Shown piece after piece: positions 1,218 to 45,751 of a stretch of 64,000 nucleotides of DNA. Within the stretch, counting starts at the first letter, position 1, and every line of letters begins with the position of its first letter. This stretch comes from an uncultured Clostridia bacterium. GTDB taxonomy: Bacteria > Bacillota > Clostridia > Oscillospirales > Acutalibacteraceae. Made by a program: the position numbers and the translations under genes. The DNA is taken from positions 1-64,000 of the forward strand of contig CALWUY010000035.1 of assembly GCA_944384855.1 (NCBI GenBank), in the 5' to 3' direction. The notes beneath the pieces are model-generated. The model was not told the origin of the DNA. It ran no database searches and worked only from the letters and a program-made list of their open reading frames with translations.

Positions 1218-1330
1218 CATTATGAAATTAAGGCGCACATTTCGGGTTGATTTAATTTATGAGGTTCGGCTCAAAGTCTGAAAAAGTTCCGATGGCTTTC
1301 GGGATATTCTTTAAAACGTGAGGTTCGGTA

Positions 1331-2120: not shown

Positions 2121-2122
2121 GT

Positions 2123-3984: not shown

Positions 3985-4039
3985 AATACGGACATAACTG
4001 GTATTGCTTTAATTGAATCGGCAATACTTCGTGTATATA

Positions 4040-5389
4040 TTACTCAGCAAAGGTTATTTCACAGCCGATAGACTGCTGACATTCTGTCAGTCCGGCGGCA
4101 ACAATTTCTTTGGTACGTTCGTAAGATTTTTTTGCTTTTTCGGCTGCGGTTTGACTGAGTGAATATTTTGACACTGCATCGTCGGGGCTTTCAAGAGGAT
4201 AAACGGTATATAAATAACCTCCGTTTTCACCGCCTTTGTATTTATCAACCCAGGTAGGTATAAGGTCAAGACCGGTAAGATCCGTACCGTCTTTGTTCTT
4301 TGTCAGCGTAAACGTGAAAAATACTCCGTCTTCAGTATGTCCTGTCGTACATTCGGGGCTCATAAGCTCCTGACGCTGATTGGAAACGTAATTTCCGGTT
4401 GAATACAGGCATACAGTAGTGTTCTGACCGTCTTCGGAATGAATGAGCTCTACCGGCTGCACAACATGCGGATGACTGCCGATAATCATATTCACACCGA
4501 GATTTGAAAGCTGCTGTGCTATGGTTTTCTGCCATGTGTTCGGGGAAGTTTGATATTCGTTTCCCCAGTGAATATAGAACACCTTAAAATCCGCGCCGTC
4601 TGATTCCATTCCGGAAAGTATCGACTGTACATTTGAATAAAATTCATCTAAACGTTTGTAAGAAAATGAATTTATCAGCGGATTAGCTTCTTCGGAAATT
4701 ATTGCGCCGTTGAGGTATTTGCGTCCTGCTATTTGACCGTCGGTTTCATAAGTGAAATTGGCAATCCCGATTTTTATGCCATTGACTTCTTTGACTGCAT
4801 AGGTGGGATCTGCTTCGGTCTCTTTGGTTCCGGTAAAATCAATACCCTTTTGTTTAAGTATCTGTACGGTACGCTTGAGTCCGTACAATCCGGTATCGTA
4901 TGAGTGATTATTAGAGGTTAAAAGCAGATTGAGACCTGACGCTTTTATTGCGTCCGCAAGGCTGTCCGGAGTGTTGAAAGCCGGATAACCGCTGTAAGCG
5001 CCCGACTCGGAACCGCCGAAGGTAACTTCCAAATTCGCTATTGCGAGATCCGCCGCCTGAAAATACGGCGCTGATTCTTTGAAAAAAGCGGTGAAATCAT
5101 AGCCGTCGGCAGTTTTGGCTCCCGTCAGCTGGGTACTGTGAACCATAATATCTCCGGTACTTAAAACGGTGGCGGTGGTTTCGGGAATTTCGGCTTCTGA
5201 ACTGTTGTCAGAGGTTTGTCCGGATGAGATGTCCGAATCGACACTTTGCTTTTTTTCAGAAGGTTTTATAATCGCGCTTATACAAAAGGTAATCAATGCG
5301 ATTGCCGAAATTAATATTAAAGTGCAAAGCGTAACAAAAATTCTGCGTCTGATTATGGCTTTTTGCCGTTTTGTTCTTTGTTTTTTCAT
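4040..5389 (-). CDS. CapA-family phosphoesterase, membrane anchored
   Basis: 449 residues. A basic N-terminus and one membrane segment (about residues 14-40) are followed by a Ser/Thr-rich linker and a metallophosphoesterase-like CapA domain. Visible motifs are STGDIM (~79-84), ANLEVTFGG, TSNNHSYDTG, FKVFYIHWGNEY and IGSHPHVVQ, which supply the Asp, Asn, His and Glu ligands expected of the fold. The family includes the poly-gamma-glutamate synthesis protein CapA/PgsA, but no pgsB/C genes are nearby, so a PGA role is not supported. A stand-alone extracytoplasmic phosphoesterase is more likely. The start is fixed by GAAAGGAG upstream of the ATG. Confidence 0.8.
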   Translation of the reverse strand: MKKQRTKRQKAIIRRRIFVTLCTLILISAIALITFCISAIIKPSEKKQSVDSDISSGQTSDNSSEAEIPETTATVLSTGDIMVHSTQLTGAKTADGYDFTAFFKESAPYFQAADLAIANLEVTFGGSESGAYSGYPAFNTPDSLADAIKASGLNLLLTSNNHSYDTGLYGLKRTVQILKQKGIDFTGTKETEADPTYAVKEVNGIKIGIANFTYETDGQIAGRKYLNGAIISEEANPLINSFSYKRLDEFYSNVQSILSGMESDGADFKVFYIHWGNEYQTSPNTWQKTIAQQLSNLGVNMIIGSHPHVVQPVELIHSEDGQNTTVCLYSTGNYVSNQRQELMSPECTTGHTEDGVFFTFTLTKNKDGTDLTGLDLIPTWVDKYKGGENGGYLYTVYPLESPDDAVSKYSLSQTAAEKAKKSYERTKEIVAAGLTECQQSIGCEITFAE

Positions 5390-5577
5390 TTTTGCTCCTT
5401 TCAGAACTATCCGACATATTAATTATTATAACTTAATTATCAGAAAAATTATTTGGGTAAAAACATTTAATTTTTATCGAATATTATTAATATATAACAA
5501 TATTCCGTAAATTGCAACTAAAATTACACAGGCAGCTTATTTTCTTTAAATTTAAAATTAAATTATTTCTATATCTT

Positions 5578-5614
5578 AAAACGGCGGTACAGTAAATTGA
5601 TGTGCCGCCGTTTT
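5578..5614. terminator. Terminator hairpin below tcdA, usable both ways
   Basis: A perfect 10-bp inverted repeat (AAAACGGCGG at 5578-5587, CCGCCGTTTT at 5605-5614) encloses a 17-nt loop. It sits 44 bp past the minus-strand tcdA stop and upstream of the minus-strand capA-like gene, so it separates the two. Confidence 0.75.
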
Positions 5615-5657
5615 AAAAAATCGTCATATTCGGTTTTAAATAAAAAGCTTTCATACA

Positions 5658-6365
5658 TTACTCTTTATAAATAATATCTTTAAAAACTTCAGCCGCTATA
5701 ATAAGACCGGCAGACGCGGGGACAAACGGTACTGAAGCGGGTACGGTTTTACTGTTTTCCCGATTAAGTTCTATCGGTTTTATAGGTTCCTCTTTTGAAT
5801 ATACTGTTTTAAGACTCTTTATACCCCGTTTTCTCAGCTCATAACGCATAACTCTGGCAAGAGGACATACAGAGGTTTTATATATATCGGCGACTTCAAG
5901 CATAGCCGGATTCAGCTTGTTGCCTGTACCCATCGAACTGATTATCGGCACATTTTCATTTTCAGCTTTTATGATAAGCAGAATTTTTGAAGATACGGTA
6001 TCTATGGCGTCAATAATATAATCATATACGGAAAAATCAAACTGATCTGCGGTGGATTTGTCAAAAAACAGACAGTGACCGGTAAACTTAATATCGGGAT
6101 TTATTTCCATACAGCGTGTTTTGCAGGCATCAACCTTGTTGCGACCCACTGTGCTGTGAGTGGCGATTATCTGACGGTTTATATTTGAGACTGCGACAGT
6201 GTCGCTGTCGATCACATCAATCGCACCTATACCGGCGCGGACAAGCGCTTCGGCCGCCCAGCTTCCGACACCTCCGGCACCGAATACAGCGACCCGCGCA
6301 TTTTTAATTTTTTGAAAATTTTTGCTTCCTGTTAAATTTTCTGTACGTGAAAACTGTTCATTCAT
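5658..6365 (-). CDS. tcdA: tRNA threonylcarbamoyladenosine dehydratase (ThiF/E1-like)
   Basis: 235 residues. The ATP-binding E1-like fold begins at about residue 22 with AVFGAGGVGSWAAE, followed by the Asp-containing DSDTVAVSNINRQ segment and the VDACKTR helix. These features are characteristic of TcdA, which cyclises t6A37 in ANN-decoding tRNAs to ct6A in an ATP-dependent dehydration. Length and the C-terminal SVPFVPASAGL segment match the family. It has its own consensus promoter in the divergent region shared with uvrC, and AAGGAA precedes the ATG. Other ThiF-like proteins (MoeB, ThiF) are less likely because no zinc CxxC pairs are present. Confidence 0.88.
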   Translation of the reverse strand: MNEQFSRTENLTGSKNFQKIKNARVAVFGAGGVGSWAAEALVRAGIGAIDVIDSDTVAVSNINRQIIATHSTVGRNKVDACKTRCMEINPDIKFTGHCLFFDKSTADQFDFSVYDYIIDAIDTVSSKILLIIKAENENVPIISSMGTGNKLNPAMLEVADIYKTSVCPLARVMRYELRKRGIKSLKTVYSKEEPIKPIELNRENSKTVPASVPFVPASAGLIIAAEVFKDIIYKE

Positions 6366-6497: not shown

Positions 6498-8330
6498 TTG
6501 GATTTGTATTCTGACAGTGAAAAACTTTCGCGGCTTAAGAAAAAAGCCAATCGGCTTCCTCTGCTGCCGGGAGTTTATATAATGCGTGACAGACAAAATG
6601 AAATTATATATATAGGCAAAGCAAAGGCCCTTAAAAACAGGGTTACCCAGTATTTCGGCGCCGGAAACCAGCACACCGAAAAGGTTAAGCGTATGGTTAG
6701 CAATGTGGATGATTTTGATTATATTGTATGCAGCAGTGAATTTGAAGCTCTGATACTTGAAAACTCGCTTATAAAGCAAAACCAGCCGAAATACAATATT
6801 CTGCTTAAAGATGATAAGGGCTATTTTTATATTAAGATTACTGATGACAAATGGAAAAGAATCGTTACCGCAAAATCGTCAGACAAGAACGGAGAATATA
6901 TAGGTCCGTACAATTCGGGATATATTGTAAAACAGACTGTTGATGAGGCAAGGAAAATTTTTAAACTGCCGGATTGCAGCCGTGATTTTGATAAAATAAG
7001 TCGTCCATGTCTTAACTATCATATAGGTTTGTGCGACGCTCCGTGCAGAGGAAAAATAAAGCTTGAGGATTATCTTGAAAATATTGAGGCAGCAACGGAG
7101 TTTATAAAAAAAGGTGACAGCGACAGCGTTTCGATAGAACTGCTTGAGGAAAAAATGTTGGCCGCCGCCGAAAATATGCAGTTTGAGACGGCGGCGAAAT
7201 ACAGGGACAGGATAAATGCCATAAAACGTATCCGTCAGAAACAAAGTGTTGTAAGCGTGTCTTATAAATCTCAGGATGTAATTGCCACATCGCTCATAGG
7301 CGAGACCGCTTGCGTAGGGATACTGATTTTCCGCAATTACAAGCTTACAGACAAACAGCATTATTTTCTCGACGGTTTCTCGGACAAAGAGTCGGTTTAC
7401 AGTGAGTTTCTTCAGCAGTATTATATTGACAACCGGGATATACCGCCGAGGATATTAATAGACAGCGAAATCAAAAATTTTGAAATTATTGAAAAATGGC
7501 TTACGGAAAAATCAGGTCATAAGGTTAATTTTATAAATCCGAAACAGGGAGAACAGCTTAAAATACTCGATATGTGTCTTAATAACGCTGCGGAAAATCT
7601 GTCGGAAAAGACCGAGCGCACCGGAAGAGAAATGTCTGCATTGAATGAGCTTGCTCAGCTTCTCGGTATGAGCCGTACTCCGAGATATATTGAGTCTTAC
7701 GATATTTCAAATACCGCAGGCAGCGATAATGTGGCGGCTTTGGTAGTATTTAAGGACGGAAGACCGTACAAACCCGCTTACAGAAAATTCAGGATTAAGG
7801 GTTTTTCGGGACAGGATGATTACCGATCAATGGCCGAGGTGCTTGACCGCCGTTTCTGCGAATATGAAAAGAATGAAGACGAAGGCTTCGGAATTCTGCC
7901 CGACCTTATTTTGCTTGACGGTGCAAAGGGTCAGATTTCAGCGGTACTTCCGGTGCTTGAAAAGCACGGTATAAATGTTCCGGTTTTCGGTATGGTAAAG
8001 GACTCAAAACACAGAACGCGGGCTATTGCCACCACCGGCGGAGATATTTCGATAAAATCAAACCGTAAGGCTTTCACCCTTGTAACAAATATACAGGATG
8101 AAGTTCACAGATTTGCCATAGGATATCATAAATCTCTCCAGAGCAGGAATCTTTTGAAATCGGAACTGCTGAATATTGACGGTGTAGGGAAAAAACGCGC
8201 AGATTCACTTATCAAACATTTTAAAAGCATAAAAAAAATCAAAGAGGCAGGAATTAACGAACTTTGCAGTGCGGAGGGTATAAATTCGGATGTTGCCGCA
8301 AAAATTTATGCATATTTTAACAAAAATTAA
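6498..8330 (+). CDS. uvrC: UvrABC excinuclease subunit C
   Basis: 610 residues, the normal length. The protein nicks DNA on both sides of a UvrB-bound lesion. Visible domains in order are the GIY-YIG nuclease (LPGVYIM ... IYIGKAKALKNRV, about 22-60), a Cys cluster (CLNYHIGLCDAPC), the UVR UvrB-binding segment (about 212-245), the UvrC RNase H-like domain with SYDISNTAG and LILLDGAKGQ, and a C-terminal helix-hairpin-helix (LLNIDGVGKKRADSLIKHF). The start is TTG at 6498 behind GGGCGGAG. The gene follows a perfect consensus promoter, so expression is probably constitutive. Confidence 0.97.
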   Translation: MDLYSDSEKLSRLKKKANRLPLLPGVYIMRDRQNEIIYIGKAKALKNRVTQYFGAGNQHTEKVKRMVSNVDDFDYIVCSSEFEALILENSLIKQNQPKYNILLKDDKGYFYIKITDDKWKRIVTAKSSDKNGEYIGPYNSGYIVKQTVDEARKIFKLPDCSRDFDKISRPCLNYHIGLCDAPCRGKIKLEDYLENIEAATEFIKKGDSDSVSIELLEEKMLAAAENMQFETAAKYRDRINAIKRIRQKQSVVSVSYKSQDVIATSLIGETACVGILIFRNYKLTDKQHYFLDGFSDKESVYSEFLQQYYIDNRDIPPRILIDSEIKNFEIIEKWLTEKSGHKVNFINPKQGEQLKILDMCLNNAAENLSEKTERTGREMSALNELAQLLGMSRTPRYIESYDISNTAGSDNVAALVVFKDGRPYKPAYRKFRIKGFSGQDDYRSMAEVLDRRFCEYEKNEDEGFGILPDLILLDGAKGQISAVLPVLEKHGINVPVFGMVKDSKHRTRAIATTGGDISIKSNRKAFTLVTNIQDEVHRFAIGYHKSLQSRNLLKSELLNIDGVGKKRADSLIKHFKSIKKIKEAGINELCSAEGINSDVAAKIYAYFNKN

Positions 8331-8367
8331 CAATTTTTTAACTTTTATTTGATATTATTTTTGCTTT

Positions 8368-9261
8368 ATGCCTATGAAAAAGCACGAAAAGAATGCCGAG
8401 AAAGGTGATCTTTTCACTACGGGCGCAGAATTCGCAGAAGAAAATTTAAAATTCAATCCTAAAGGTAAAGTGTGCGACCTTGTAGTACCGGTAATTTTCC
8501 TTATAATTGCCTGTGTAATCGGTATGATATATTCGGGAGGATTTTTTACTTCGGATGCTGACGGTTACCATAATTTCGTCACAGCTTTTTCAAACAGTGA
8601 TGCGTCGGTAGGACTTGTATACGGATCGGCAGTCTCTTTGGTATTTACGGTTATATTTTTCCTCTGCAGACGAGTGCTGAGTTTCAAAGACAGTATGGCT
8701 TCTTTGCCGGAAGGCTTTTGCGCAATGGTGCCGGCCATTCTTATACTCGTTTTTGCATGGACACTTAAAGCCATGACGGATTCTTTAGGTGCAAAAATAT
8801 TTATTTCTCAGATAATTGAAAATTCTGCCGGATCACTTCAGGCGTTTTTACCGGCAATTATATTCATTATAGCTGTTGGATTATCCTTTGCTACCGGGAC
8901 ATCGTGGGGAACTTTCGGTATACTCATTCCCATAGTGCTCAGCGTTTTCGGAGCAGACAGCGGAAATATTACTATTGCTGCGATTTCAGCATGTATGGCC
9001 GGAGCGGTTTGCGGAGATCACTGTTCGCCTATATCGGATACTACGATTATGGCTTCGGCAGGCGCACAGTGCAAACATATTAACCATGTTTCCACGCAGC
9101 TGCTGTATGCGCTTACTGTTGCGGGTGTATCATTTGTATGTTATTTGATTGCGGGATTCATACCTAACTGGATGCTGGTATTGCCTATAGGCATTGTATT
9201 GATGCTGGGTACATTGTTTGTGATAAAATTTATTTCAGGTAGAAAATACAATACAAAATAA
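8368..9261 (+). pseudogene. NhaC-family Na+/H+ antiporter, N-terminal part missing
   Basis: 297 residues that correspond to the C-terminal part of NhaC antiporters, which are normally about 450-530 residues. Motifs GTSWGTFGILIP and CMAGAVCGDHCSPISDTTIM are the conserved NhaC core near the end of the protein. Five to six membrane segments are visible from residue ~30 onward. uvrC ends only 37 bp upstream, so there is no room for the missing half and no fragment of it is seen. The ATG lacks a good ribosome binding site. It is probably a remnant left by a deletion that fused this end to the uvrC locus; a functional short variant cannot be excluded. Confidence 0.65.
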
Positions 9262-9269
9262 ATTTTTGC

Positions 9270-9297
9270 TTGACATTGGCTGAATTTGTGGTAAAAT
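9270..9297 (+). promoter_or_regulatory. Promoter of the infC-rpmI-rplT operon
   Basis: TTGACA at 9270-9275 and TAAAAT at 9292-9297 are spaced by 16 bp. Transcription would start just before the structured leader and leave an untranslated region of about 140 nt. Confidence 0.7.
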
Positions 9298-9302
9298 ATA
9301 TT

Positions 9303-9419
9303 CAAATGAAGTAGTACGCACAGCGTCCTCACCCGGAGAGTCAGTTCTGTAGGGTCAATAAGATTTTCTGTTTTACTGCAGTATTCTTATGCGCGGACGC
9401 TTTGTGTCCGCGCATTTTT
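9303..9419 (+). promoter_or_regulatory. L20-type leader with transcription attenuator
   Basis: The leader ends in a strong intrinsic terminator: GCGCGGAC (9391-9398) pairs with GTCCGCGC (9406-9413), followed by ATTTTT. An upstream segment AGCGTCC (9322-9328) is exactly complementary to GGACGCT (9395-9401) inside the terminator's 5' arm, giving an alternative antiterminator fold. In Firmicutes the infC operon leader is bound by free ribosomal protein L20, which promotes termination. The position and the mutually exclusive pairings match that scheme; L20 binding itself is inferred. Confidence 0.75.
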
Positions 9420-9442
9420 AATTATTTTGGAGGTGTATTCAC

Positions 9443-9961
9443 ATTAGCAGTAAAGAACTCGCTGTAAACGAAGATATTAAGTTCAAGGAAGTCCGTACAA
9501 TTTCCGCCGACGGTTCGCAGCTCGGAATTATTCCTGTTGCAAAAGCCCTTGAGGCCGCATACGCGGCAGACCTTGATCTGGTCTGTATTTCTCCTAACGC
9601 GCAGCCGCCCGTCTGTAAGATAATGGATTACGGTAAATACCGTTTTGAGCAGGCAAAGCGTGAAAAGGAAGCCAAGAAAAACCAGAAAACGATGGAAGTT
9701 AAGGAAATTCGTCTGGGACTTAGTATTGACGTTCATGATTTCGAGACAAAAGGCAGACACGCCATAAGATTTTTGGATGACGGCAACAAAGTTAAGGTAT
9801 CTATTAGATTCAGGGGACGTGAGTTGGGACATCCTGAAATCGGACTTGATACCATGGCACGCTTTGCCGAGTTTTGCGCGGAGAAGTCTAATGTTGAAAA
9901 AGCTGCTAAGATGGAAGGGCGTAACATGGTTATGTTCCTGGCCCCAAAATCAGGTAAGTAA
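9443..9961 (+). CDS. infC: Translation initiation factor IF-3, AUU start
   Basis: 172 residues. The N-terminal domain (VNEDIKFKEVRTISADG, then LGIIPVAKALEAA) and the PPVCKIMDYGKY linker precede the C-terminal KEIRLGLSIDVHDFETK domain, all canonical for IF-3. No ATG, GTG or TTG lies near the required N-terminus. ATT at 9443 sits 9 bp after GGAGG (9429-9433) in the right frame; a second ATT at 9437 is too close. The AUU start is the known device by which IF-3 limits its own synthesis, because IF-3 discriminates against such starts. An internal ATG at 9623 would remove the whole N-domain and is not the start. Confidence 0.93.
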   Translation: MSSKELAVNEDIKFKEVRTISADGSQLGIIPVAKALEAAYAADLDLVCISPNAQPPVCKIMDYGKYRFEQAKREKEAKKNQKTMEVKEIRLGLSIDVHDFETKGRHAIRFLDDGNKVKVSIRFRGRELGHPEIGLDTMARFAEFCAEKSNVEKAAKMEGRNMVMFLAPKSGK

Positions 9962-9991
9962 TTGAAGTAACAAATTTAAGGAGGATCTACA

Positions 9992-10189
9992 ATGCCTAAG
10001 ATTAAAACACACAGCGGTGCCAAAAAACGCTTTAAGCTGACAAAAACCGGTAAGGTAAAAAGAGCACACGCGTTCAAGTCACACATCCTTAACAAGAAAA
10101 CTACCAAGCGTAAGAGAAACCTTCGCAAGACTGTTGTTGCCGATGTAACAAATGTGGCTAAGGTTAAGAAAATGGTTCCTTACAAATAA
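9992..10189 (+). CDS. rpmI: 50S ribosomal protein L35
   Basis: 65 residues, highly basic, beginning [23 protein letters not shown], with the [10 protein letters not shown] segment diagnostic of L35. AGGAGGATCT precedes the ATG. It is the second gene of the infC operon, 30 bp after infC, and is co-regulated by the upstream leader. Confidence 0.97.
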
Positions 10190-10216
10190 GAAGCTAAAAA
10201 GTGGAGGTAAATTGAA

Positions 10217-10576
10217 ATGGCACGTGTTAAAGGTGCGTTAGCAACACGCAAAAGAAGAAAAAAGATATTAAAGCTTGCTAAGGGCTATTTCGGCGCTAAG
10301 TCCAAGCTCTTTAAAACCGCTAAAGAGGCGGTTATGAAATCGGGAAATTATGCTTATATCGGCCGCAGACAGAAAAAGCGTGACTTCCGCCGTCTCTGGA
10401 TTACAAGAATTTCGGCTGCCTGCAAGCTTAACGGTATAAATTACTCGACATTTATTAACGGTCTTAACAAAGCAGGCATTGCTATTAACCGTAAGATGTT
10501 AGCAGATTTGGCTGTTAACGACGCCAACGGTTTTGCATCTCTTGTAAAAGCCGCTAACAAAGCATTAGAAAAATAA
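10217..10576 (+). CDS. rplT: 50S ribosomal protein L20
   Basis: 119 residues, the standard length. The N-terminal basic extension ([22 protein letters not shown]) and the C-terminal globular part ([20 protein letters not shown]) are typical. L20 is an early 23S rRNA-binding assembly protein and, in Firmicutes, the feedback regulator of this operon through the leader. GTGGAGGT lies just before the ATG. It is the last gene of the operon, and a terminator follows. Confidence 0.97.
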
Positions 10577-10582
10577 TTTTTT

Positions 10583-10618
10583 TCGCCCGGGTCTATGCTT
10601 GCCTCGGGCGACTTTTTA
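10583..10618 (+). terminator. Terminator of the infC operon
   Basis: TCGCCCG (10583-10589) and CGGGCGA (10605-10611) form the stem, and CTTTTTAATTTT follows. Confidence 0.8.
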
Positions 10619-10647
10619 ATTTTATATATTCACAGGCGGTGTTTTAA

Positions 10648-11433
10648 ATGAATGATTTTAAGTTTATAGAAAGCAGTCAGAATTCTGTTATAAAGCAGAT
10701 ATGCAAATTGCAGGCTTCTTCAAAAGAACGCTATGAAAACGGTCAATTTGTAATAGAGGGGCTGCGTATATGCAAAGATGCCTGTGAAAACGGTATAAGG
10801 TTTGATAAGCTGATAGTTTCTGATGAAGCCTTTGATAAATTTTACGGCGGGATTGAGATTTTAGCTGAAAATTCGTGTGAATGTATAAAAGTTACGGATC
10901 CGCTTTTCAGGAAAATCAGCGATACCAAAAATCCTCAGGGTATTGCGGCGGTAGCTTCTATGCCGGACATCAGTACAAATAATATAGACTTAAAAGGAAG
11001 ATATATAGCGCTTGAAAATATTTCCGATCCGGCAAATTTAGGCGCCGTGGCAAGAACGGCAGAAGCTTTAGGTGCTTCGGGTATCATCCTTTCAGCCGAC
11101 GGCTGTGATCCGTATTCTCCGAAGGTACTCAGGGCTTCGATGGGTACCCTCCTCAGAATGCCGCTGATTATGCTTGATGATTTTTCGGCAAATATCGGTA
11201 AATTGGGACTTAAGCTGTTTGCTTGTGTGGTCGATAAAGATGCGCAAAGCATAATTGACGTCAGATTTCAGGACGGGTGCGCCGTAATTATCGGAAACGA
11301 AGCTAACGGTGTCACGGCAGAAACGAAGAAAGCGTCTGATTTACTCATAACTATTCCAATGCAGGGCGCGGCGGAATCACTCAATGCTGCGGCCGCGGCG
11401 GCAATTTCAATTTGGGAAATGATGAAGATATGA
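10648..11433 (+). CDS. TrmH/SpoU-family RNA 2'-O-methyltransferase
   Basis: 261 residues. An N-terminal substrate-binding domain precedes the SPOUT knot, whose three motifs are clear: NISDPANLGAVARTAEALG (~128-146), VIIGNEANGVT (~213) and ITIPMQGAAESLNAAAAAAI (~235-254). SAM-dependent ribose methylation of 23S rRNA (RlmB or TsnR-like) is the usual role; the exact nucleotide cannot be told. The stop overlaps the dprA start in an ATGA, giving translational coupling. Confidence 0.88.
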   Translation: MNDFKFIESSQNSVIKQICKLQASSKERYENGQFVIEGLRICKDACENGIRFDKLIVSDEAFDKFYGGIEILAENSCECIKVTDPLFRKISDTKNPQGIAAVASMPDISTNNIDLKGRYIALENISDPANLGAVARTAEALGASGIILSADGCDPYSPKVLRASMGTLLRMPLIMLDDFSANIGKLGLKLFACVVDKDAQSIIDVRFQDGCAVIIGNEANGVTAETKKASDLLITIPMQGAAESLNAAAAAAISIWEMMKI

Positions 11434-12581
11434 AATATTCAGTATGGCTGCAGTTATGCCTTGGTGCAGCAAGCTCAAACTTTAAAAGGGCTATTGAAGT
11501 TTTTAAAAATGCAGAAAATATTTACGGTGCCGGCTTCAAAGCGCTGAAAGACTCCGGGATTTTTTCGGCCGGTGAACTCAGGCGGTTAAGTACGGTGCAG
11601 CTTGTGGATGCAGAAAAAATTATCAATGACTGTTATAAGAACAAAATCGGCATAATAACATATAGTGATAAGCGGTATCCGGTTTGCCTGTCCGCAATAG
11701 ATAATCCTCCGGCTGTAATTTATTATAAAGGAAAATTCCCGGATTTTGACAATATTCCGTCAGTAGCGATAGTGGGACCGAGAAATGTGAGCGAATTCGG
11801 CAAGCGTGCGGCGTTTTCTTTAGGTTACCGGCTCGCACGGTCGGGGATGATTGTTGTAAGCGGCGGCGCGTTGGGGTGTGATACTCATGCGCATGCAGGC
11901 GCGCTGAAAGCTGAGGGTATAACCGTGCTTGTAATGGCTTGCGGTATACTTAGTAATTATTTGAAAGAAAATGCGCCGTTAAGAAACGAAGTAGCTAAAA
12001 ACGGATGTCTCATAAGCGAATATCTGCCAGATTTTCCTGCAACGAGGTACACGTTTCCGGTGAGGAACCGAATAATTTCAGCGCTGTCGCTGGGAACTGT
12101 TGTAATCGAAGCAGGTGAAAAAAGCGGAGCGCTCATAACCGCAAGACACGCTAATGATCAGGGCAGAGACGTATTTGTAATACCTCATTCTCCGAAAAAC
12201 AAAAGTTATGAAGGTTCCAACGCTTTGCTCAGAGACGGAGCAAAGCCTTTGCTTGACGCGTCTGATATTTTTAATGAATATATTCCGCGGTTTCCCGATA
12301 AAATCAATATAGAGAGAGCCTATTCAGGTCATATTTTATCTGACACAGTTAAAAATGAAGCTAAAAGTGAAACAAAAAATCAAAAAAGTGAAAAAAATTT
12401 AAACGAAACTCTTTCCAAAGAGGCAAAAATAGTATATAATTATTTGGATAAGCAAAAATTTCTGCCGGAGGATTTGCTGGGCTGCGGTTTGAGCTCTCAG
12501 CAGCTGCTTTCTGCGTTGACCGAACTTGAAATGGAGTTTTTAATCAAAGCGGTACCCGGAGGAATGTATGAAAAATGTTAG
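11430..12581 (+). CDS. dprA: DNA-processing protein DprA
   Basis: 383 residues from the ATG at 11430, which overlaps the upstream stop. A helical N-terminal domain precedes the Rossmann fold, with VAIVGPRNVSEFGKR, VVSGGALGCDTHAHAGAL, the FPVRNRIISALS segment and the SGALITARHANDQGRDVF segment of the DprA family. A C-terminal winged-helix region follows after a Lys/Glu-rich linker. DprA loads RecA on incoming single-stranded DNA. The first motif has Pro, and the second Leu, where Ser and Arg are usual, a modest divergence. dprA directly before topA is a common Firmicutes arrangement. Confidence 0.93.
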   Translation: MKYSVWLQLCLGAASSNFKRAIEVFKNAENIYGAGFKALKDSGIFSAGELRRLSTVQLVDAEKIINDCYKNKIGIITYSDKRYPVCLSAIDNPPAVIYYKGKFPDFDNIPSVAIVGPRNVSEFGKRAAFSLGYRLARSGMIVVSGGALGCDTHAHAGALKAEGITVLVMACGILSNYLKENAPLRNEVAKNGCLISEYLPDFPATRYTFPVRNRIISALSLGTVVIEAGEKSGALITARHANDQGRDVFVIPHSPKNKSYEGSNALLRDGAKPLLDASDIFNEYIPRFPDKINIERAYSGHILSDTVKNEAKSETKNQKSEKNLNETLSKEAKIVYNYLDKQKFLPEDLLGCGLSSQQLLSALTELEMEFLIKAVPGGMYEKC

Positions 12582-36662: not shown

Positions 36663-36682
36663 TGAATTATACTAAATGAATA
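36663..36682. repeat. Left copy of 20-bp direct repeat (putative att site)
   Basis: The 20 bases from 36663 are identical to 39816-39835. Behind both copies a partly matching tail follows (TTTCGC then CAATT, offset by three bases on the left). The pair bounds the Rep/recombinase element, 3153 bp from repeat to repeat. Confidence 0.65.
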
Positions 36683-36738
36683 GTGTTTCGCATCAATTCG
36701 CTACCGCTTTGCAGAAAAGCTGTTGATATAAAAAAAAA

Positions 36739-36766
36739 GAAAGAGACCGTTAAAACGGTCTCTTTC
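36739..36766 (+). terminator. Strong hairpin at the left end of the element
   Basis: A 13-bp perfect stem (36739-36751 with 36754-36766) carries a 2-nt loop and a T-rich tail. It would insulate the element from upstream transcription. Confidence 0.75.
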
Positions 36767-36884
36767 TCTTTTTGATACCCTGCCCGCGTTATCAAGTAAT
36801 CAGCTTATAGAAACGCACGGTCTCAATGGAGCAGGGCTGTGCCTTACGCACTCCGCTTAATAAATATATCACGGGGTGCATAAA
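36767..36884 (+). other. Structured leader before the 55-residue ORF
   Basis: CCCTGC (36778-36783) can pair with GCAGGG (36831-36836), and inside it GCGTT (36786-36790) with AACGC (36812-36816). The remaining bases up to the ORF are AT-rich. It could be an origin component or an RNA leader. Confidence 0.4.
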
Positions 36885-37052
36885 ATGTCAAGTGAAAATT
36901 TTAAAATGTATTTTGCGTGTGTAGACTGCCCGAATTTAAAGCGCAGTAGTTTATGGGGGTGGGTATGCGTGTTTGAACCCGAAAAGCCCTCAGAAGTCAA
37001 AATAGATGTGTTTTCAGACGTTCCTGACTTTTGTCCTCGTTTGCCTTTCTGA
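36885..37052 (+). CDS. 55-residue Cys-rich small protein of the mobile element
   Basis: An ATG at 36885 is 6 bp after GGGGTG (36873-36878) and opens a 55-codon frame ending with TGA at 37050-37052. Composition is protein-like: a CVDC pair at 12-15, further Cys at 28 and 50, four Phe, and an acidic, Pro-containing C-terminal half. The Cys arrangement could bind one zinc. No family is recognised. Position just ahead of the structured region suggests a role in element control, but that is a guess. Confidence 0.55.
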   Translation: MSSENFKMYFACVDCPNLKRSSLWGWVCVFEPEKPSEVKIDVFSDVPDFCPRLPF

Positions 37053-37761
37053 GCGTTACGACTTCGCGCTCCCGCCTTGATAGGCGGGCGGGGGGTGGTA
37101 GACTCTTACCATAGCAACGCAGAGACTATGACACGCCGCCGCCGATACGCCTTTAAAAGAAGTTAACCAGTGCGCACACTGGTTAACGATAAAGGCGGCG
37201 GCGTGAGCGTGGGTGCGCGGGGGTATGGCGGGCGCGAGCCGCAACGTAGGCGAGCGGGCACTCAGGCACACGTGCAAGCCGTAAGGCGTGGTAACGTGTG
37301 CCGAGTTCGCGCACCCGAAAGGGCGCGAGTGCAACAAAAAAGCTGACAGGTCAGGTTTTTTGTTGCCTAAATGCGAGCGCCTACCGAGCCCGTTGCCGTT
37401 AGCGCGGAATTGTTTACAAATTCCGCGTAGGCAACAACTGCGCCGCAAGTTCCACCCCCAAAAACATACTGCAAGTGAAAGCGTGTGCTTTTTGCGGGGT
37501 GGGCGCGCGGTGCAGAGCGAATGCGGGAGAACGCTGAATTGTCAAGGGCGAAGTCGGTCAGACTTCGCTTGCTGTAGCCCTTGACAATCGAAAAAAAAGC
37601 ATAATCTTAAAAGGCGGCCGCAGGGCTTGCCCTTGCGCCGCTTATCTGCCAATACACTTTTTGCTGTGTCCAGCGCAGTGCACGCGCGTGAGTGCGTGCG
37701 CGCGCGGCGGCTTTCCTATATACTTGACTAAGTAACATAAAGCGGTAGTTTGTGTTCCTAA
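37053..37761 (+). other. GC-rich, palindrome-dense non-coding region (putative rolling-circle origin)
   Basis: No credible gene is present over 700 bp. Inverted repeats seen are: 37071-37088 (7-bp stem); a long nested hairpin 37132-37205 with 12-bp outer arms (CACGCCGCCGCC and its complement) and an 11-bp inner stem 37162-37172/37177-37187; 37265-37273/37294-37302; 37331-37341/37356-37366; 37403-37411/37419-37427; and 37538-37549/37577-37588 enclosing GAAGTC/GACTTC. This density fits double- or single-strand origins of a rolling-circle replicon, or a large structured RNA. The open frames on either strand here look like chance readings. Confidence 0.6.
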
Positions 37762-38640
37762 ATGCTTGAAAATTTTTCAGATTACGACCTTTTAAAATGG
37801 TACGAATATGACCTTAAGAAACGTATCAAAAAAAACGGTTTAGCTTCCGTACCCGCTTTACACGGATATCAAACTTTATCACTTCACGATAGCTGGAATT
37901 TATACGACTACGGCGACATTATGAAGATCGTTTACTTTAAAACGCCGCCGAAAATCGCCGACCCGCGCAAAGCGGAGCGCAAAAAAACCGAAATTACAAA
38001 GGTACAGCACAGCGAGGGCGAGCGCTTCGCAAGCTCTGTTACGCGGAGCAAAGCGCGCGTATTTGAACTTGCTATGTGCAACGAGTTTAAATATTTTTGC
38101 ACATTCACGCAGGATGAAAAAAAACGCGACCGGTTTGATCTTGCAGATTTCCGAAAAGACTTTGCAATGCTTGTCCGAAATCTCAACCGAAGCCGGGCTG
38201 AAAAGATAAAATATCTGCTGATACCAGAGCAACACAAAGACGGTGCGTGGCACATGCACGGCTTGTTGCTCGGGTTACAGCCTGACGACCTGCGGGAGTT
38301 CCGGCTTGATGAAAATCTGCCCGCGCGACTGCGCGACAAAATTAAAAGCGGCGTTAAAATATACGATTGGACACGCTATCGGCGCGCTTTCGGGTACTTC
38401 ACTTGTACCGAAATTGCGGACAGTGTGGCTTGCTCAAAGTACATAACAAAGTACATAAGCAAAGACTTGCAGAAAACAATACGTGAGCAGGGCGAGCATT
38501 TGTTTTTTGCAAGTCAGGGGCTTAAGGGCAGGGAATGTGTTGTAAAACACAGCCTTGACCGTTGTCCTGTTGATAATTGGGACTTTGAAAACGATTACAT
38601 CAAGATCAGGGAAATAAGAAAAACCACTGCGGAAAATTGA
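37762..38640 (+). CDS. HUH-endonuclease replication initiator (Rep)
   Basis: 292 residues. The core shows a beta-strand FKYFCTFTQ, the HUH motif in WHMHGLLL (His164, Met, His166) and a two-tyrosine motif KYITKY (Tyr227 and Tyr231, three residues between), the hallmark of the phiX174 gpA/filamentous G2P-like Y2 Reps. These proteins nick an origin, attach to the 5' end and restart rolling-circle synthesis. The ATG at 37762 has no clear ribosome binding site; a later start is possible, but the core would be unaffected. The neighbouring recombinase and palindromic region support a replicon. Assignment to plasmid, inovirus or microvirus type is open. Confidence 0.8.
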   Translation: MLENFSDYDLLKWYEYDLKKRIKKNGLASVPALHGYQTLSLHDSWNLYDYGDIMKIVYFKTPPKIADPRKAERKKTEITKVQHSEGERFASSVTRSKARVFELAMCNEFKYFCTFTQDEKKRDRFDLADFRKDFAMLVRNLNRSRAEKIKYLLIPEQHKDGAWHMHGLLLGLQPDDLREFRLDENLPARLRDKIKSGVKIYDWTRYRRAFGYFTCTEIADSVACSKYITKYISKDLQKTIREQGEHLFFASQGLKGRECVVKHSLDRCPVDNWDFENDYIKIREIRKTTAEN

Positions 38641-38692
38641 GATTTTGCGCGGCAGTAGACATTTTTCGGAAAGTAAAGAGAGGGGGGAAAAT

Positions 38693-39214
38693 ATGCGCAG
38701 TGAATGGATACCAAAAGGGGATATGGAACATATACTCGCGGCTCTTACGCCGCAAAACAGGCTTGCCTGTGAAGTGTCGCTTGCGACTGGTTTAAGGATA
38801 GGTGACGTGCTTTTGCTTACACCCGAAAAGGCGCGTAAACAAAGGTTTACTGTGCGGGAGCAGAAAACAGGCAAAACGCGCCTTGTGCGTTTGCCGAAAG
38901 CGCTTGCAGAGCGTTGTATATCCTGTGCGGGGGCACATTACGTTTTTGAAAACCGCCTTGACGGCAGGAAACCGCGGACGCGTCAAGCGGTCTGGAAAGA
39001 CTTAAAGCGGGCGGCGCGGCTGTTCGGCTGCAAGGCGAATGTAACGCCGCATAGCGCGCGCAAAGCGTACGCTGTAGAGGAGTACGCTAAAAGCGGCAGT
39101 TTAAAGCGGGTGCAAAAGCTGTTAAACCATAGTGATGAAGCCGTAACAATGCTTTACGCTATGGCGAACATTGTCAGCAAGCGGAAAAAGTTCGAAAATC
39201 AAAAAAAGAGGTGA
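38693..39214 (+). CDS. Tyrosine recombinase, catalytic domain only
   Basis: 173 residues from the ATG at 38693, behind AGGGGGG. All catalytic residues are recognisable: Arg35 (GLRIGD), Lys58 (EQKTGK), His120 and Arg123 (TPHSARKAY), His146 (LLNHSD) and the nucleophile Tyr155 (TMLYAM). The N-terminal core-binding domain of typical integrases is absent, as in FimB/FimE-type invertases. It probably integrates and excises the element at the 20-bp repeats. It lies 52 bp after rep and overlaps the sigma gene's ribosome binding site. Confidence 0.88.
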   Translation: MRSEWIPKGDMEHILAALTPQNRLACEVSLATGLRIGDVLLLTPEKARKQRFTVREQKTGKTRLVRLPKALAERCISCAGAHYVFENRLDGRKPRTRQAVWKDLKRAARLFGCKANVTPHSARKAYAVEEYAKSGSLKRVQKLLNHSDEAVTMLYAMANIVSKRKKFENQKKR

Positions 39215-39221
39215 AAAACGT

Positions 39222-39677
39222 TTGAATTATGCCGAAAAAAACGAAATTTTGAGCGATTTTGAAAAATTGATAAATTTTTACGCGCGAAAAAGCGTATCAT
39301 ATTTTGACGATATGCGCGGCTGTTTGCTGTTGTTTCTGCTTGAATTGTACGCGCGCGGAAAATGTGTATCAAAGCGGTATGTCGCGGTTGCTATAAGGAA
39401 TGAATACATAAGGATATCTAAGTTTGTATTTTTGCATAAAACAGAGCGGGAATTTGTAGACTTCTGCCTGACTTATGATATTTTTCCTGACGAGGAAAAT
39501 AAAATGTTGTTTGCCGATATTTTAAAATCGCTTACGCAAAAGCAACGGGAATGTGTACTTTTACGCTTTTACGGCGGTTACAGTTCCACCGAAATAGCCG
39601 AAAAATTCGGCATATCAAGGCAGGCGGTTCACAGATTGCAAAAGCGCGCTATTGACAAACTAAAAACTTTAATGTAA
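39222..39677 (+). CDS. Small sigma-70-like factor of the mobile element
   Basis: 151 residues from TTG at 39222, with GAGGTGA at 39208-39214. The C-terminal third is a clear sigma region 4: SLTQKQRECVLLRFYGG, then a helix-turn-helix STEIAEKFGISRQAVHRL (~103-148). The N-terminal part (~5-85) is helical and could be a diverged region 2. It may direct RNA polymerase to element promoters. A simple region-4-type DNA-binding regulator is the alternative. Confidence 0.75.
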   Translation: MNYAEKNEILSDFEKLINFYARKSVSYFDDMRGCLLLFLLELYARGKCVSKRYVAVAIRNEYIRISKFVFLHKTEREFVDFCLTYDIFPDEENKMLFADILKSLTQKQRECVLLRFYGGYSSTEIAEKFGISRQAVHRLQKRAIDKLKTLM

Positions 39678-40071
39678 AATGATACTCGTTGAGGTCTCAA
39701 TAAAAGCCGAAAGGAGTTCGCGCCGAATTGTGCGAAACTAACATTTAGTACTCGCGATTTGCGGGCTTGTAATTCACGATAGGCAAGCGGTGACTTGCCA
39801 TAAATTCAGATATAGTGAATTATACTAAATGAATATTTCGCGCAATTAAGGGGATACGAGTTTTTATCTTTTTGCTTTAATACACATATAATCTGCTACT
39901 TTTCAATGTATTTAATTATATATAAGCGGGCCTGACTCGGATCATAACGCTATTGCTGCCAGTGGATAATGTTTTTAATTTGATATAATATTTATTTTTT
40001 AAATATATTATCAATTCTTTTTTCTCTTTTTGTCTAAGTAATATAAAAAAATTTAATTATCAAAAAAATGC
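39678..40071 (+). other. Non-coding right end of the element and flank
   Basis: The stretch holds a 6-bp hairpin (39782-39787/39794-39799), the right 20-bp repeat at 39816, and AT-rich flank leading to the tRNA promoter. No credible gene is seen. Confidence 0.5.
39816..39835. repeat. Right copy of 20-bp direct repeat (putative att site)
   Basis: Identical over 20 bases to 36663-36682. It lies about 280 bp upstream of tRNA-Leu and does not overlap it. Confidence 0.65.
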
Positions 40072-40563: not shown

Positions 40564-41628
40564 ATGAAAATTACAGATGTAGATAAAAATTTACAGATAA
40601 ATAATACAATAAATAAAGATGATGTGGTGTGGTACAAAGCTGATGTGTTCCCTTTTAAAGTGTACGGTGCTTATTCGACTTCGCCTTACAAGCGCATTCC
40701 TACAGATTTAGCGCTGAAAATCGGTAATAATATGGAATATCTGCACACCAATACGGCAGGTATCCGAATAAGATTTCGTACAAGCTCACCGTATCTTGCT
40801 CTCCATGTCAAATGGGATCAGCAGACAGTTTTTTATCACATGGCTACTACAGGTACAAGCAGTTTCGATGTATTTTCGTATGACACGGTTACACATAAAC
40901 AGTCATTTGTAATTCCGGTTATAGCTCCCTGTGATGCGCCTCAGGGTTTTGACGGTGTGGTCGATTTATTAGGACGAATGCAGGATTATATACTCAATTT
41001 TCCTCATTATAACAATGTAACGGAGTTATATATCGGAGTAAAAGAAAATTCTGAATTTGAAGAAAGCGCCGAATATTTAAACAGACTTCCGGTTGTTTTT
41101 TACGGTTCTTCTATTACTCAGGGCGCCTGCGCTTCAAGACCCGGAAATACTTACATCAACTTTCTTTCACGCTGGTTAGATATGGATTATATAAACTTAG
41201 GATTTGCCGGCAACTGTCTCGCAGAGCAAGAAATGGCGGAATATTTGTCAGGGCTTAAAATGTCAGTATTTGTATCTGATTACGACCATAACGCTCCTGA
41301 GCCTGAATTTCTTGAAAAAAATCATTATAAGCTGTATGAAATAATTAGAAGGTCTAATCCGGATTTACCTTATGTTTTGCTATCGAGACCGAATTATATT
41401 TTCGATCTTAACGGTGATGCAAGGCGTAAGGTTGTGATGGAAACATTCTGTAAGGCACTGAATAACGGGGATCGTAACATTTATTTTATTGACGGCGCTT
41501 CAATGTTTGCGCAGGATGAGTACGATGCATGTACGGTAGACCTCTGTCATCCAAATGATTTAGGATTTTATCGTTTTGCGCAGGCGCTTTATCCCACTTT
41601 TAAAGAGATATTTAAAAAAATATTATAA
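40564..41628 (+). CDS. SGNH/GDSL-type hydrolase with N-terminal beta domain
   Basis: 354 residues. The N-terminal half is a beta-sandwich (VKWDQQ, TGTSSFDVF region), and the SGNH domain starts near residue 178. The nucleophile is Ser183 in YGSSITQG, the oxyanion residues lie in GFAGN, and the Asp-His pair is Asp326/His329 in DLCHPND. Such proteins are typically carbohydrate or polyketide-ester esterases. No signal peptide is seen, so it acts in the cytoplasm. GTGAGGTAAAG precedes the ATG. It is followed by a close paralogue, so a tandem duplication is evident. Confidence 0.88.
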   Translation: MKITDVDKNLQINNTINKDDVVWYKADVFPFKVYGAYSTSPYKRIPTDLALKIGNNMEYLHTNTAGIRIRFRTSSPYLALHVKWDQQTVFYHMATTGTSSFDVFSYDTVTHKQSFVIPVIAPCDAPQGFDGVVDLLGRMQDYILNFPHYNNVTELYIGVKENSEFEESAEYLNRLPVVFYGSSITQGACASRPGNTYINFLSRWLDMDYINLGFAGNCLAEQEMAEYLSGLKMSVFVSDYDHNAPEPEFLEKNHYKLYEIIRRSNPDLPYVLLSRPNYIFDLNGDARRKVVMETFCKALNNGDRNIYFIDGASMFAQDEYDACTVDLCHPNDLGFYRFAQALYPTFKEIFKKIL

Positions 41629-41656
41629 ATAATACATAATGTTAGGAAGCGATATT

Positions 41657-42718
41657 ATGGCTGAAAAAGGCAAAGACAAAAACTTAGTTGTAAATGCAAA
41701 TCTTGATGAAAAGGACGAAATTGCGTGGTATGAGGCGGATAAAACGCCGTTTACCGTATATGGCGTTTGTTCCACGACTCCGTATAAAAGAATTGATTCA
41801 GAACTTGCTGAGGCTACAAATGACGGAGTTGTGTTCCATCACGGCAATCCGTCCGGAGCACGTGTGCGTTTCCGTACGAATTCTCCTTATATAGCGGTAC
41901 ATGCAGAATGGAATGAACAGGAAAAATATCCATCCTTAACCGATATTGCATGCTGCGGATTTGATCTGTATACTTACAACCGGAACAGCCGCCGGCAGAC
42001 ATACAAAGGTTCTTTTTCACCACAGCCTAACAGTCTGAAAGGTTTTGATCATATTTGTTACTGTGATGGGATTATGACAGATTATGTGCTCAATTTACCT
42101 CTTTATAACAATCTTACGAATTTGTTAATAGGTGTAAAAAGCGGATCTGAATTTGAAGAAACCGAAAAGTATTTTAATGATTTGCCTGTAGTTTTCTACG
42201 GTTCCTCCATTACTCAGGGATGCAGCTCATCAAGACCCGGAAACAGTTATATAAATATACTATCACGGGAACTCAATCTTGACACTGTAAATCTTGGTTT
42301 TTCCGGTTCGGCACGAGGCGAGGATGTCATAGTAAAATATTTGTCCGGGCAAAAGATGTCTGCATTTGTATGTGACTACGACCATAACGCTCCTAATGCC
42401 GAGCATCTTGAAAAAACTCATTACAGAATATATGAGACAGTAAGAAAAAAACATCCGGATTTACCTTACATAATGCTTACAAAACCTGATTACAAGCGTG
42501 ACGAAGGCGATGATTTAAGACGAGTAGTAGTTATGAAAACATTTATAAAAGCGATTGAACGCGGCGACAAAAACGTTTACTTCGTTGACGGAGCGTCGCT
42601 GTTCAGAGGTCATAGATTCATGGACTGCACAATAGACGGCTGCCATCCAAATGATCTGGGATTTAATTATTTTGCCGAAGCCCTCTACCCTGTTCTTTAT
42701 AGGATTTTTTATAAATAA
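41657..42718 (+). CDS. SGNH/GDSL-type hydrolase, tandem paralogue
   Basis: 353 residues, similar to the preceding gene over its whole length: the IAWYEADKTPFTVYG start, YGSSITQG, GFSGSA and DGCHPND correspond. The ATG at 41657 has AGGAAG upstream and is preferred to that at 41639. The Asn of the usual block III is Ser here (GFSGSA instead of GFAGN), so the oxyanion hole may differ. The gap to the first copy is 28 bp, so both are probably one transcript. Confidence 0.88.
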   Translation: MAEKGKDKNLVVNANLDEKDEIAWYEADKTPFTVYGVCSTTPYKRIDSELAEATNDGVVFHHGNPSGARVRFRTNSPYIAVHAEWNEQEKYPSLTDIACCGFDLYTYNRNSRRQTYKGSFSPQPNSLKGFDHICYCDGIMTDYVLNLPLYNNLTNLLIGVKSGSEFEETEKYFNDLPVVFYGSSITQGCSSSRPGNSYINILSRELNLDTVNLGFSGSARGEDVIVKYLSGQKMSAFVCDYDHNAPNAEHLEKTHYRIYETVRKKHPDLPYIMLTKPDYKRDEGDDLRRVVVMKTFIKAIERGDKNVYFVDGASLFRGHRFMDCTIDGCHPNDLGFNYFAEALYPVLYRIFYK

Positions 42719-44908: not shown

Positions 44909-45751
44909 ATGGATAAAAAAAGATCTCGCGAAGATTTTACAAATCATTCGCATGTACCGTGTAAACAGCCCGGTAATAACTGTTGTATTTGTCGTGGCCC
45001 TCAGGGTGAACCGGGGCCACGAGGACCACAAGGTATTCCGGGACCGCGTGGGCTTCAGGGCCCTCAGGGAGAAACCGGACCGCAGGGTCCGCAAGGAGAG
45101 CCGGGGCCACAGGGTCCTCAAGGCGATATCGGACCGCAAGGACCGCAAGGTATTCCGGGGCCACAGGGTCCTCAAGGCGATATCGGACCGCAGGGTCCGC
45201 AAGGTATTCCGGGTCCGCAGGGTCCTCAGGGAGATATCGGACCGCAAGGACCGCAAGGTATTCCGGGACCGCAGGGCCCTCAGGGAGATATCGGACCGCA
45301 GGGACCGCAAGGTATTCCGGGTCCGCAGGGTCCGGCAGGAGAGCCTGCAGAAGACATTTTTGCATCATTTTATATATTTGAAATTGTATTTGCGAATGCA
45401 CAGACAATACCTTTAACCACTGGCACCGCGGATAACACACAAAATATTGTACTTGTTAACAACAAACAAATTAACTTGACACCGGGATATTATTATATAT
45501 CTTATAGCGTATCAACTATACTTGACAGTGCCGGATATATGCAAATTACACCTTCATATAATGGTACGTCGCATTTGGAATACGGTATTTATTTTAAAAC
45601 TAATACAACTTCCTCAAGCGCATACGGGTCTAATTCAATTATTATTTATGTGCCTTCCCAGACAAATTTCACTTTGACTTATAATAGTAATGTGCAAAAC
45701 CGTTCAGGAGCGGCAACTGTAGCAGTATTAAAATTAAACAGAGATTCATAA
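44909..45751 (+). CDS. Collagen-like protein with BclA/C1q-like C-terminus
   Basis: 280 residues. A short Cys-containing head (residues 1-29, four Cys) is followed by about 39 uninterrupted Gly-X-Y triplets (30-146), dominated by GPQ, GIP and GDI. A beta-rich C-terminal domain of ~130 residues (150-280) resembles the TNF/C1q-like caps of bacterial collagens. Within the collagen part an 18-residue unit is repeated four times. No signal peptide is seen, as in exosporium collagens such as BclA. GGAGAG precedes the ATG. Function is likely structural, on the cell or spore surface, but sporulation genes are not visible here. Confidence 0.9.
45115..45330 (+). repeat. 54-bp minisatellite inside the collagen-like gene
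   Basis: About four tandem 54-bp units encode the 18-residue block [18 protein letters not shown]. Copies differ only at silent third positions (CCG/CCA, GGA/GGG/GGT), so the array is old enough to have drifted but has been kept in frame. Confidence 0.85.

Follow-up and report, generated by a model that had tools for sequence, protein, structure and literature searches.

A rolling-circle mini-replicon in a gut Clostridia chromosome, probably inserted at dif and likely to enter it as folded single-stranded DNA

We analysed 64 kb of chromosomal DNA from an uncultured gut bacterium of the class Clostridia (contig CALWUY010000035.1, positions 1 to 64,000; hereafter the window), which carries a 3.15-kb mobile element encoding a replication initiator (Rep), a tyrosine recombinase and a sigma-like factor. 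We consider it fairly likely that the element is a satellite-like rolling-circle mini-replicon that integrates at the dif site of its host, where daughter chromosomes are unlinked, probably as folded single-stranded DNA. Its anatomy and its target are well supported; the single-stranded route and the roles of the host Xer proteins and of the element's own recombinase are what we infer from them.

The two ends of the element, 36663-36682 and 39816-39835, are identical direct copies of a 20-bp sequence, TGAATTATACTAAATGAATA, as an earlier reading made from the sequence alone had noted. At up to three mismatches the 64-kb window holds two matches in total, where the expected mean is 0.05 and none of 100 shuffles gives two. 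At up to two mismatches the repeat occurs in its own genome solely at the two ends of the element, which rules out a dispersed repeat, one of the outcomes that would have told against the sequence-only reading. The repeat is real, and it is not an arbitrary attachment (att) site: it is one half of a 30-bp palindrome, AATTATACWAAA-TGAATA-TTTWGTATAATT, a relation that the reading missed. The palindrome is, from its sequence and distribution, probably the dif site of the genus. The target would therefore be the terminus/Xer locus, and the element is probably inserted at the chromosomal dif.

At up to three mismatches, with the 6-nt spacing fixed by the search pattern, the palindrome occurs exactly once in 46 of the 70 genomes of the genus and never twice; among high-quality genomes the proportion is 32 of 39. 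The same pattern read backwards matches none of the 70, and the canonical Firmicutes dif pattern has no match in them at three mismatches. The 20-bp repeat (up to two mismatches) is present in 15 of 60 genomes, the element's own included: twice in two of them (its own and G023) and once in 13. In all five contigs examined, which were the window and four others picked for length, with 64-100 kb viewed in each, the cumulative GC skew has its peak near the site, at distances of 2.8, 4.8, 3.6, 19.5 and 8.4 kb. For at least 17 of the 46 genomes, the end of a xer-like match falls no more than 200 bp from the site; the frames concerned measure 296-316 aa (201 in one). Score and length point to two Xer-like frames (298-357 aa) in 13 of the 15 genomes examined (own included), and for this reason a single-recombinase system of the XerS/XerH type was dropped.

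Two other replicons occupy the same dif-like site. In G067, the sole genome with a Zot match among the 70, a 4.75-kb inovirus-like prophage (Zot, Rep_OBD and, by eye, coat-like open reading frames (ORFs); locus L150, G067:C4:38000-50274, 7216-11992) lies between an attL whose centre, TGAATAGTG, is that of the window element and a dif-like attR. In G027, a 5.2-kb microvirus prophage (L151, G027:C69:5000-13000, 1074-6252) is flanked on each side by a copy of AATTATACAAAATGAATA, and the right-hand copy falls within a perfect palindrome; the prophage has a Phage_F capsid (E 2e-137), and its Rep matches PF23343, the Pfam family of the window Rep. Microviruses integrate at the dif of Escherichia coli by host XerC/D (PMC7062461). 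Both prophages support the identity of the site as dif.

Some observations weigh against this identity. The 20-bp pattern read backwards yields three chance matches, in three of the 60 genomes; G084 and G065 show a weak flip of the skew; and the element's own genome fails the 30-bp pattern at three mismatches because its right arm, TTTCGCGCAATT, is unusual. The site could instead be a favoured attachment site of the element family, with the nearby xer-like gene an old integrase. Its dif function is predicted from sequence, and several element-free genomes hold scar-like copies of the element's right end. Against this stand the single copy in 46 genomes where Rep occurs in just five of the 70, the skew peak near all five sites, the lack of a canonical dif match, and the presence of an inovirus and a microvirus at the same place. 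The microvirus lowered an estimate that was already small, and we now regard a site other than dif as very improbable.

The three genes named in the sequence-only reading were borne out by Pfam matches. The Rep motifs H164-M-H166 and Y227-x3-Y231 are invariant in four aligned sequences, the window's own included. With both an HUH motif and paired tyrosines, the sequence is consistent with a Y2-type HUH initiator; these are the roles that we take the two motifs to have. The nearest phage Reps belong to Inoviridae, those of bajarodino virus 5 and Dulem virus 73 being 36-37% identical; among solved structures the Rep profile found no match at E 0.1. In the recombinase, PF00589 spans positions 2-168 of 172, and there is no N-terminal domain. 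Residues R35, K58, H120, R123, H146 and Y155 are invariant in five aligned sequences (own included), so that the R-K-HxxR-H-Y set, which we take to be catalytic as in other tyrosine recombinases, is intact. The recombinase was also modelled with AlphaFold, but the quality was low (mean pLDDT 59.8) and the model was set aside. The element's ORFs include no Zot ATPase or coat gene, and its own genome has no Zot match; spread would therefore need help, perhaps, to speculate, from phages that use the same dif. Viral contigs scanned with the Rep and recombinase profiles yielded no confirmed relative.

Close relatives of Rep are present in five of the 70 genomes: the element's own, G023, G035, G007 and G079. 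In the other four a core-only recombinase lies directly downstream of Rep. Identity among the related elements is 56-60% for Rep and 65-76% for the recombinase. Dif-like repeats bound the elements of G023 (3,269 bp) and G035 (3,240 bp); that of G007 has no recognisable left repeat and no normal right arm, and a contig end truncates that of G079. The G007 element overlaps at its right end with a Rep_trans-like gene below the Pfam cut-off (L015, 8869-9990, minus strand), maybe a second replicon in an array. The genes on either side of the 3.27-kb insertion of G023 enclose a single dif in G032; the flanks are 92% identical over 3.8 kb and 87.5% identical over 5.3 kb. A search for the window's own empty site with its right flank gave mostly tRNA matches and no recognisable orthologous site; the left flank was not searched. 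Empty sites in relatives, which the sequence-only reading had suggested looking for, thus exist (the 46 single-site genomes; G032 against G023), and its proposal of an integrating rolling-circle mini-replicon with satellite-like content has held up on the evidence of relatives, circular relatives and this occupied/single pair.

A conserved trio of Rep, recombinase and sigma-like factor, as that reading had supposed, did not survive the comparison. All six close mini-elements hold the core-only recombinase, so that its pairing with Rep is conserved, but only three carry the sigma-like gene: the window, G023 and the contig L108, the last weakly (phmmer 3e-8, Pfam below cut-off). In G035 an 81-aa ORF takes its place, and in G007 and G079 about 160 and 220 bp separate the recombinase from the site. 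Related recombinases also accompany unrelated Reps. Among 24 Rep loci from genome contigs, eight have a core-only recombinase beside Rep (L108-L113, L120, L124); three of these are G023, G035 and G007 again, in L120 the recombinase stands beside the locus's second Rep, and L116 is a further, weaker case. L113 has a 331-aa xer-like gene on one side and, on the other, a different dif-like site, AACTTCGCATAA TTTCAG TTTTGCGAAGTT; by eye its attL centre is 12 bp. In L124 (1-6590) an inovirus-like block with Zot and Rep_trans adjoins a Rep-recombinase mini-element that ends at a dif-like site with a 6-bp centre. This is a possible helper-satellite array; packaging of the mini-element by such a helper is speculative.

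The inovirus affinity of Rep raises the question of whether the element is the surviving relic of an inovirus prophage that lost its coat and Zot genes. Both inovirus records opened hold Zot genes, and in L124 such a gene stands beside a mini-element at a dif-like site. The genes of the window element are open, and they are conserved in related elements of equally small size; a circle of similar small size also exists (L108). These points make decay improbable.

A sequence resembling the element's right end lies upstream of dif in G032, G029, G021, G036 and G089, none of which has a Rep match. Such sequences, which stand at loci L021, L019, L017, L018 and L106, are likely the scars of earlier, lost insertions. 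In G023 and G035 the right-end sequence is repeated to the left of attL (169 and 106 nt, 95-96% identical), as expected if elements pile up at a restored dif.

Circular forms were observed for relatives of the element. L108 is a 3,552-bp contig of the Clostridia metagenome-assembled genome RGIG5368 from sheep colon, with Rep, recombinase and sigma-like gene. Its ends overlap exactly over 141 bp, which makes it either a circle of 3,411 bp or a tandem array. Its junction, AATTGTACTAAA TGAATAACG TTTAGTATAATT, has a 9-bp centre. Joining the ends of the integrated elements predicts junction centres of the same length in the window (TGAATAGTG), G023 (TGAATAATG) and G035 (TGAACAACG). The circle's attachment site (attP) thus mimics dif, since the predicted junctions and that of L108 carry dif-like arms. 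In the window the 9-bp centre, read by eye, arises from an extension at the left end of the element and appears at attL as well as at the predicted junction. A mechanical two-arm search missed the window's imperfect arms and recovered the 9-bp layout in G023, G035 and L108. Seven circular rat-cecum plasmids of 2.2-3.8 kb (the best seven of 477 matching records: pRGI01058, pRGI00836, pRGI00891, pRGI00952, pRGF00147, pRGF00030 and pRGF00146) carry recombinases 42-55% identical to the element's; the next 13 plasmid matches listed are ordinary recombinases at 30-35%. Five of the plasmid Reps were scanned: one is RepL, three are Rep_1 and one is Rep_OBD. pRGI00891 has a perfect site with 12-bp arms and a 9-bp centre, pRGI00836 has another such site with a 10-bp centre, and in pRGI01058 there are two dif-like sites. 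A good dif-like two-arm site of the genus type was not seen in two inovirus records with related Reps, which gave one weak match, in Dulem virus 73.

The attP regions of the window, G023 and G035 are predicted to adopt the same fold in one strand, with an outer arm, an unpaired centre, an inner arm and side hairpins (z -5.8, -7.3 and -5.6). As in a CTX-type attP, two inverted dif-like sites would fold together, and one centre is enlarged. A similar layout is predicted for L113 (z -6.1), pRGI01058 (-10.3) and pRGI00891 (-4.2). Over ten loci the 15 pairs of the inner stem are 98.7% paired, against 88.7% after shuffling, with 13 double-change cells against 3.7 and a covariation of 0.295 against 0.098; none of 500 shuffles reaches any of these three values. 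Slid versions of the stem pair at 45% at most. The second site also follows the host: the window's odd right arm is mirrored in the element's second site, and TCCTAAA in G036 as TTTAGGA. A mechanical rule was also applied: of 11 rows that have the second-site motif, 5 contain, upstream, the exact reverse complement of the 8-mer at the arm, compared with none of the 32 rows that lack the motif; with one mismatch allowed the counts are 8 of 11 and 1 of 32. G079 is counted twice among the 11; G032, G029 and G089 fail, and in these the candidate partners sit nearer than the rule permits.

Several results speak against the folded attP. Two element-free dif regions, used as controls, reach z -4.8 and -2.4 through the palindrome itself, and the integrated attL and attR reach -3.5 and -5.6. 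When segments of the circle are ranked by energy, three that cover attP take only places 19, 49 and 52 of 127, behind the GC-rich left region. Because of these controls we dropped fold energy alone as evidence and rely on the common shape, the covariation and the matching of host variants. The covariation loci are five elements and five scar-like element-free sites, with segments picked by eye, and two weaker measures of the inner stem are matched by chance more often: pairs changed on both sides (5) by 25 of 500 shuffles, and further pair types (9) by 7 of 500. The two-site fold is also not universal, being unseen in L108, pRGI00836, L124 and the G067 inovirus (whose z of -4.1 comes from other hairpins), and in four of the seven rat plasmids no two-arm site was found.

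The replicons with one site or no two-site fold (L108, L124, pRGI00836) would fit a circle that recombines with dif as double-stranded DNA through its single junction site, in the manner of VGJphi, TLCphi or the microviruses, with the second site serving as an accessory or in multimer resolution. A core-only recombinase could act on such a substrate. This explanation sits poorly with the covarying inner stem, with a second site that tracks host-specific dif variants, and with a layout that matches attP1/attP2 of CTXphi (PMC4246890); we think it unlikely, though worth keeping in view.

The enzyme that acts at the site is a separate matter. The listed ORFs of the G067 inovirus and the G027 microvirus include no recombinase gene, a further point against our reading, so that the element's own enzyme is perhaps not needed; host Xer probably suffices for some replicons. 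With two Xer-like frames in most of the genomes examined, host Xer might integrate the element too, leaving the core-only enzyme to copy-number control or multimer resolution and dispensable for entry. Retention of the recombinase by all six close mini-elements and by plasmids with unrelated Reps argues otherwise, as do its invariant catalytic residues. We regard integration by host Xer as a serious possibility, on balance doubtful.

If integration proceeds through folded single-stranded DNA, as we favour, Rep would nick the circle and produce single-stranded copies, as members of its family do. Within one strand, the junction site would pair with the second dif-like site, near the right end, a step suggested by the predicted fold and the covariation; this pairing would flank an unpaired centre with arms to which a recombinase binds. 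One strand would then be exchanged between the folded attP and the chromosomal dif by a tyrosine recombinase, most likely the core-only enzyme of the element, acting together with host Xer or in its place, and host replication would complete the insertion, both steps being modelled on CTXphi. Of the products, attL with its 9-bp centre would probably be a poor Xer substrate, and attR with its 6-bp centre probably a working dif. The insertion would thus be stable, would not impair the unlinking of chromosomes and would allow more elements to insert.

The coordinates of the element's features are collected in Table 1. The element is richer in GC (0.472) than its 5-kb flanks (0.375 and 0.355), as the sequence-only reading had it, but not throughout: the excess stems from 37.0-39.0 kb (0.50), and the sigma-like gene has only 0.377. 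About 1 kb of GC-rich sequence (36774-37761) contains no recognised genes and has very stable predicted folds, the lowest energies in the circle; it may hold replication origins. The promoter-like sequence near the right end has counterparts, by eye, in G023, G035 and G079. Integration targeted to a tRNA gene was ruled out, as the nearby tRNA-Leu starts 281 bp to the right of attR, outside the repeat; besides tRNA, the known RNA elements matched at the element ends were all below gathering score. Elsewhere in the window, two neighbouring similar-looking ORFs of 354 and 359 aa (40564-42718) are perhaps a tandem duplication, and an ORF of 280 aa (44909-45751) has collagen-like repeats.

Table 1. 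Features of the element and its ends, in window coordinates.
Feature	Position	Strand	Basis
attL copy of the repeat: dif left arm AATTATACTAAA (36665-36676) and centre TGAATA	36663..36682	+	
Left end of the element: 3-nt centre extension GTG, then arm TTTCGCATCAATT	36683..36698	+	read by eye
Terminator-like inverted repeat, 20 bp	36732..36773	unassigned	
38-bp block 5' of rep, conserved in G023 at 97% identity; putative promoter of rep, or origin	37714..37751	+	
Rep, HUH (HMH, Y-x3-Y) replication initiator of inovirus G2P/ORF2 type	37762..38640	+	PF23343 REP_ORF2-G2P, E 6e-11
Core-only tyrosine recombinase, 173 aa	38693..39214	+	PF00589 only, E 7e-20
Sigma-70 region-4-like protein, TTG start, optional gene	39222..39677	+	PF04545 Sigma70_r4, E 2e-15
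Promoter-like TTGACA-17-TAAAAT, overlapping the sigma-gene end and reading towards attR, across the attP region	39652..39680	+	by eye
Second dif-like site AATTGTGCGAAA CTAACA TTTAGTA, predicted to pair with the junction site in one strand	39726..39750	+	
TAATTCAC, predicted to pair with GTGAATTA (39815-39822) in the inner stem	39770..39777	+	
attR, probable regenerated dif: AATTATACTAAA TGAATA TTTCGCGCAATT, 6-bp centre, then AAGGGG	39816..39847	+	

If our reading is true, the hijacking of dif by a folded attP, best known from cholera phages, extends to Clostridia and to elements with a minimal recombinase of their own. The analysis also supplies a probable dif sequence for a genus of Clostridia in which the standard Firmicutes pattern finds none, and suggests a route into chromosomes for gut rolling-circle plasmids. 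The natural host-matched pairs of attP and dif are material for testing single-stranded recombination. More tentatively, and with somewhat more doubt than belief, we envisage a modular system of gut Clostridia in which a core-only recombinase and a folding dif-mimic attP, with arms that track the host dif, would be common to rolling-circle plasmids and inovirus-like satellites with unrelated Reps, and would insert single-stranded DNA into dif by their own enzyme. Such a system would be a further single-strand-integrating one beside integrons and CTXphi.

The Rep of CTXphi is of HUH type, as is that of the element. Among the titles and abstract openings listed by searches of one open-access library we found no description of an element of this kind, which is not proof of absence, and PMC3025954 and PMC10061712 yielded nothing decisive. 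Close parallels are CTXphi and its satellite RS1 of Vibrio cholerae, CTX-type integrative mobile elements exploiting Xer (IMEX) that insert at dif, irreversibly in the case of CTXphi. The attP comprises two inversely oriented dif-like sites 90 bp apart (about 65-90 bp here), with one enlarged centre of 12 bp (9 here) and a short one of 5-7 bp (6 here) (PMC4246890, PMC5357621). The window element differs in its Clostridia host, its dif, its lack of coat, Zot or recognised RstR/RstB-like genes, and its own tyrosine recombinase, because of which we do not file it as CTX-type. The satellite TLCphi, which borrows the morphogenesis proteins of other phages (PMC4246890), and VGJphi are likewise filamentous-phage-related circles at dif, but use a single double-stranded attP and host Xer. 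The enterobacterial gokushoviruses (EC6098) also place small HUH-Rep phage DNA at dif; they have capsid genes and no integrase, and integrate by host XerC/D (PMC7062461). LME-1 of Legionella, a mobile element from another host phylum, likewise carries a mimic of dif and lies close to the terminus (PMC9765430). The rat-cecum plasmids share the core-only recombinase and small circular form, and three show dif-like arms, but the five scanned have other Reps and the plasmids are known as circles only; the paper describing them counts phage-integrase domains, and its main text contains neither 'recombinase' nor 'Xer' (PMC3913684). Integrons, in which IntI acts on attC, also join a tyrosine recombinase to single-stranded partners (PMC4792948), whereas the element has no cassettes or attI and targets dif. 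The gut Inoviridae with the nearest phage Reps, bajarodino virus 5 and Dulem virus 73, differ from the element in having Zot and further phage genes.

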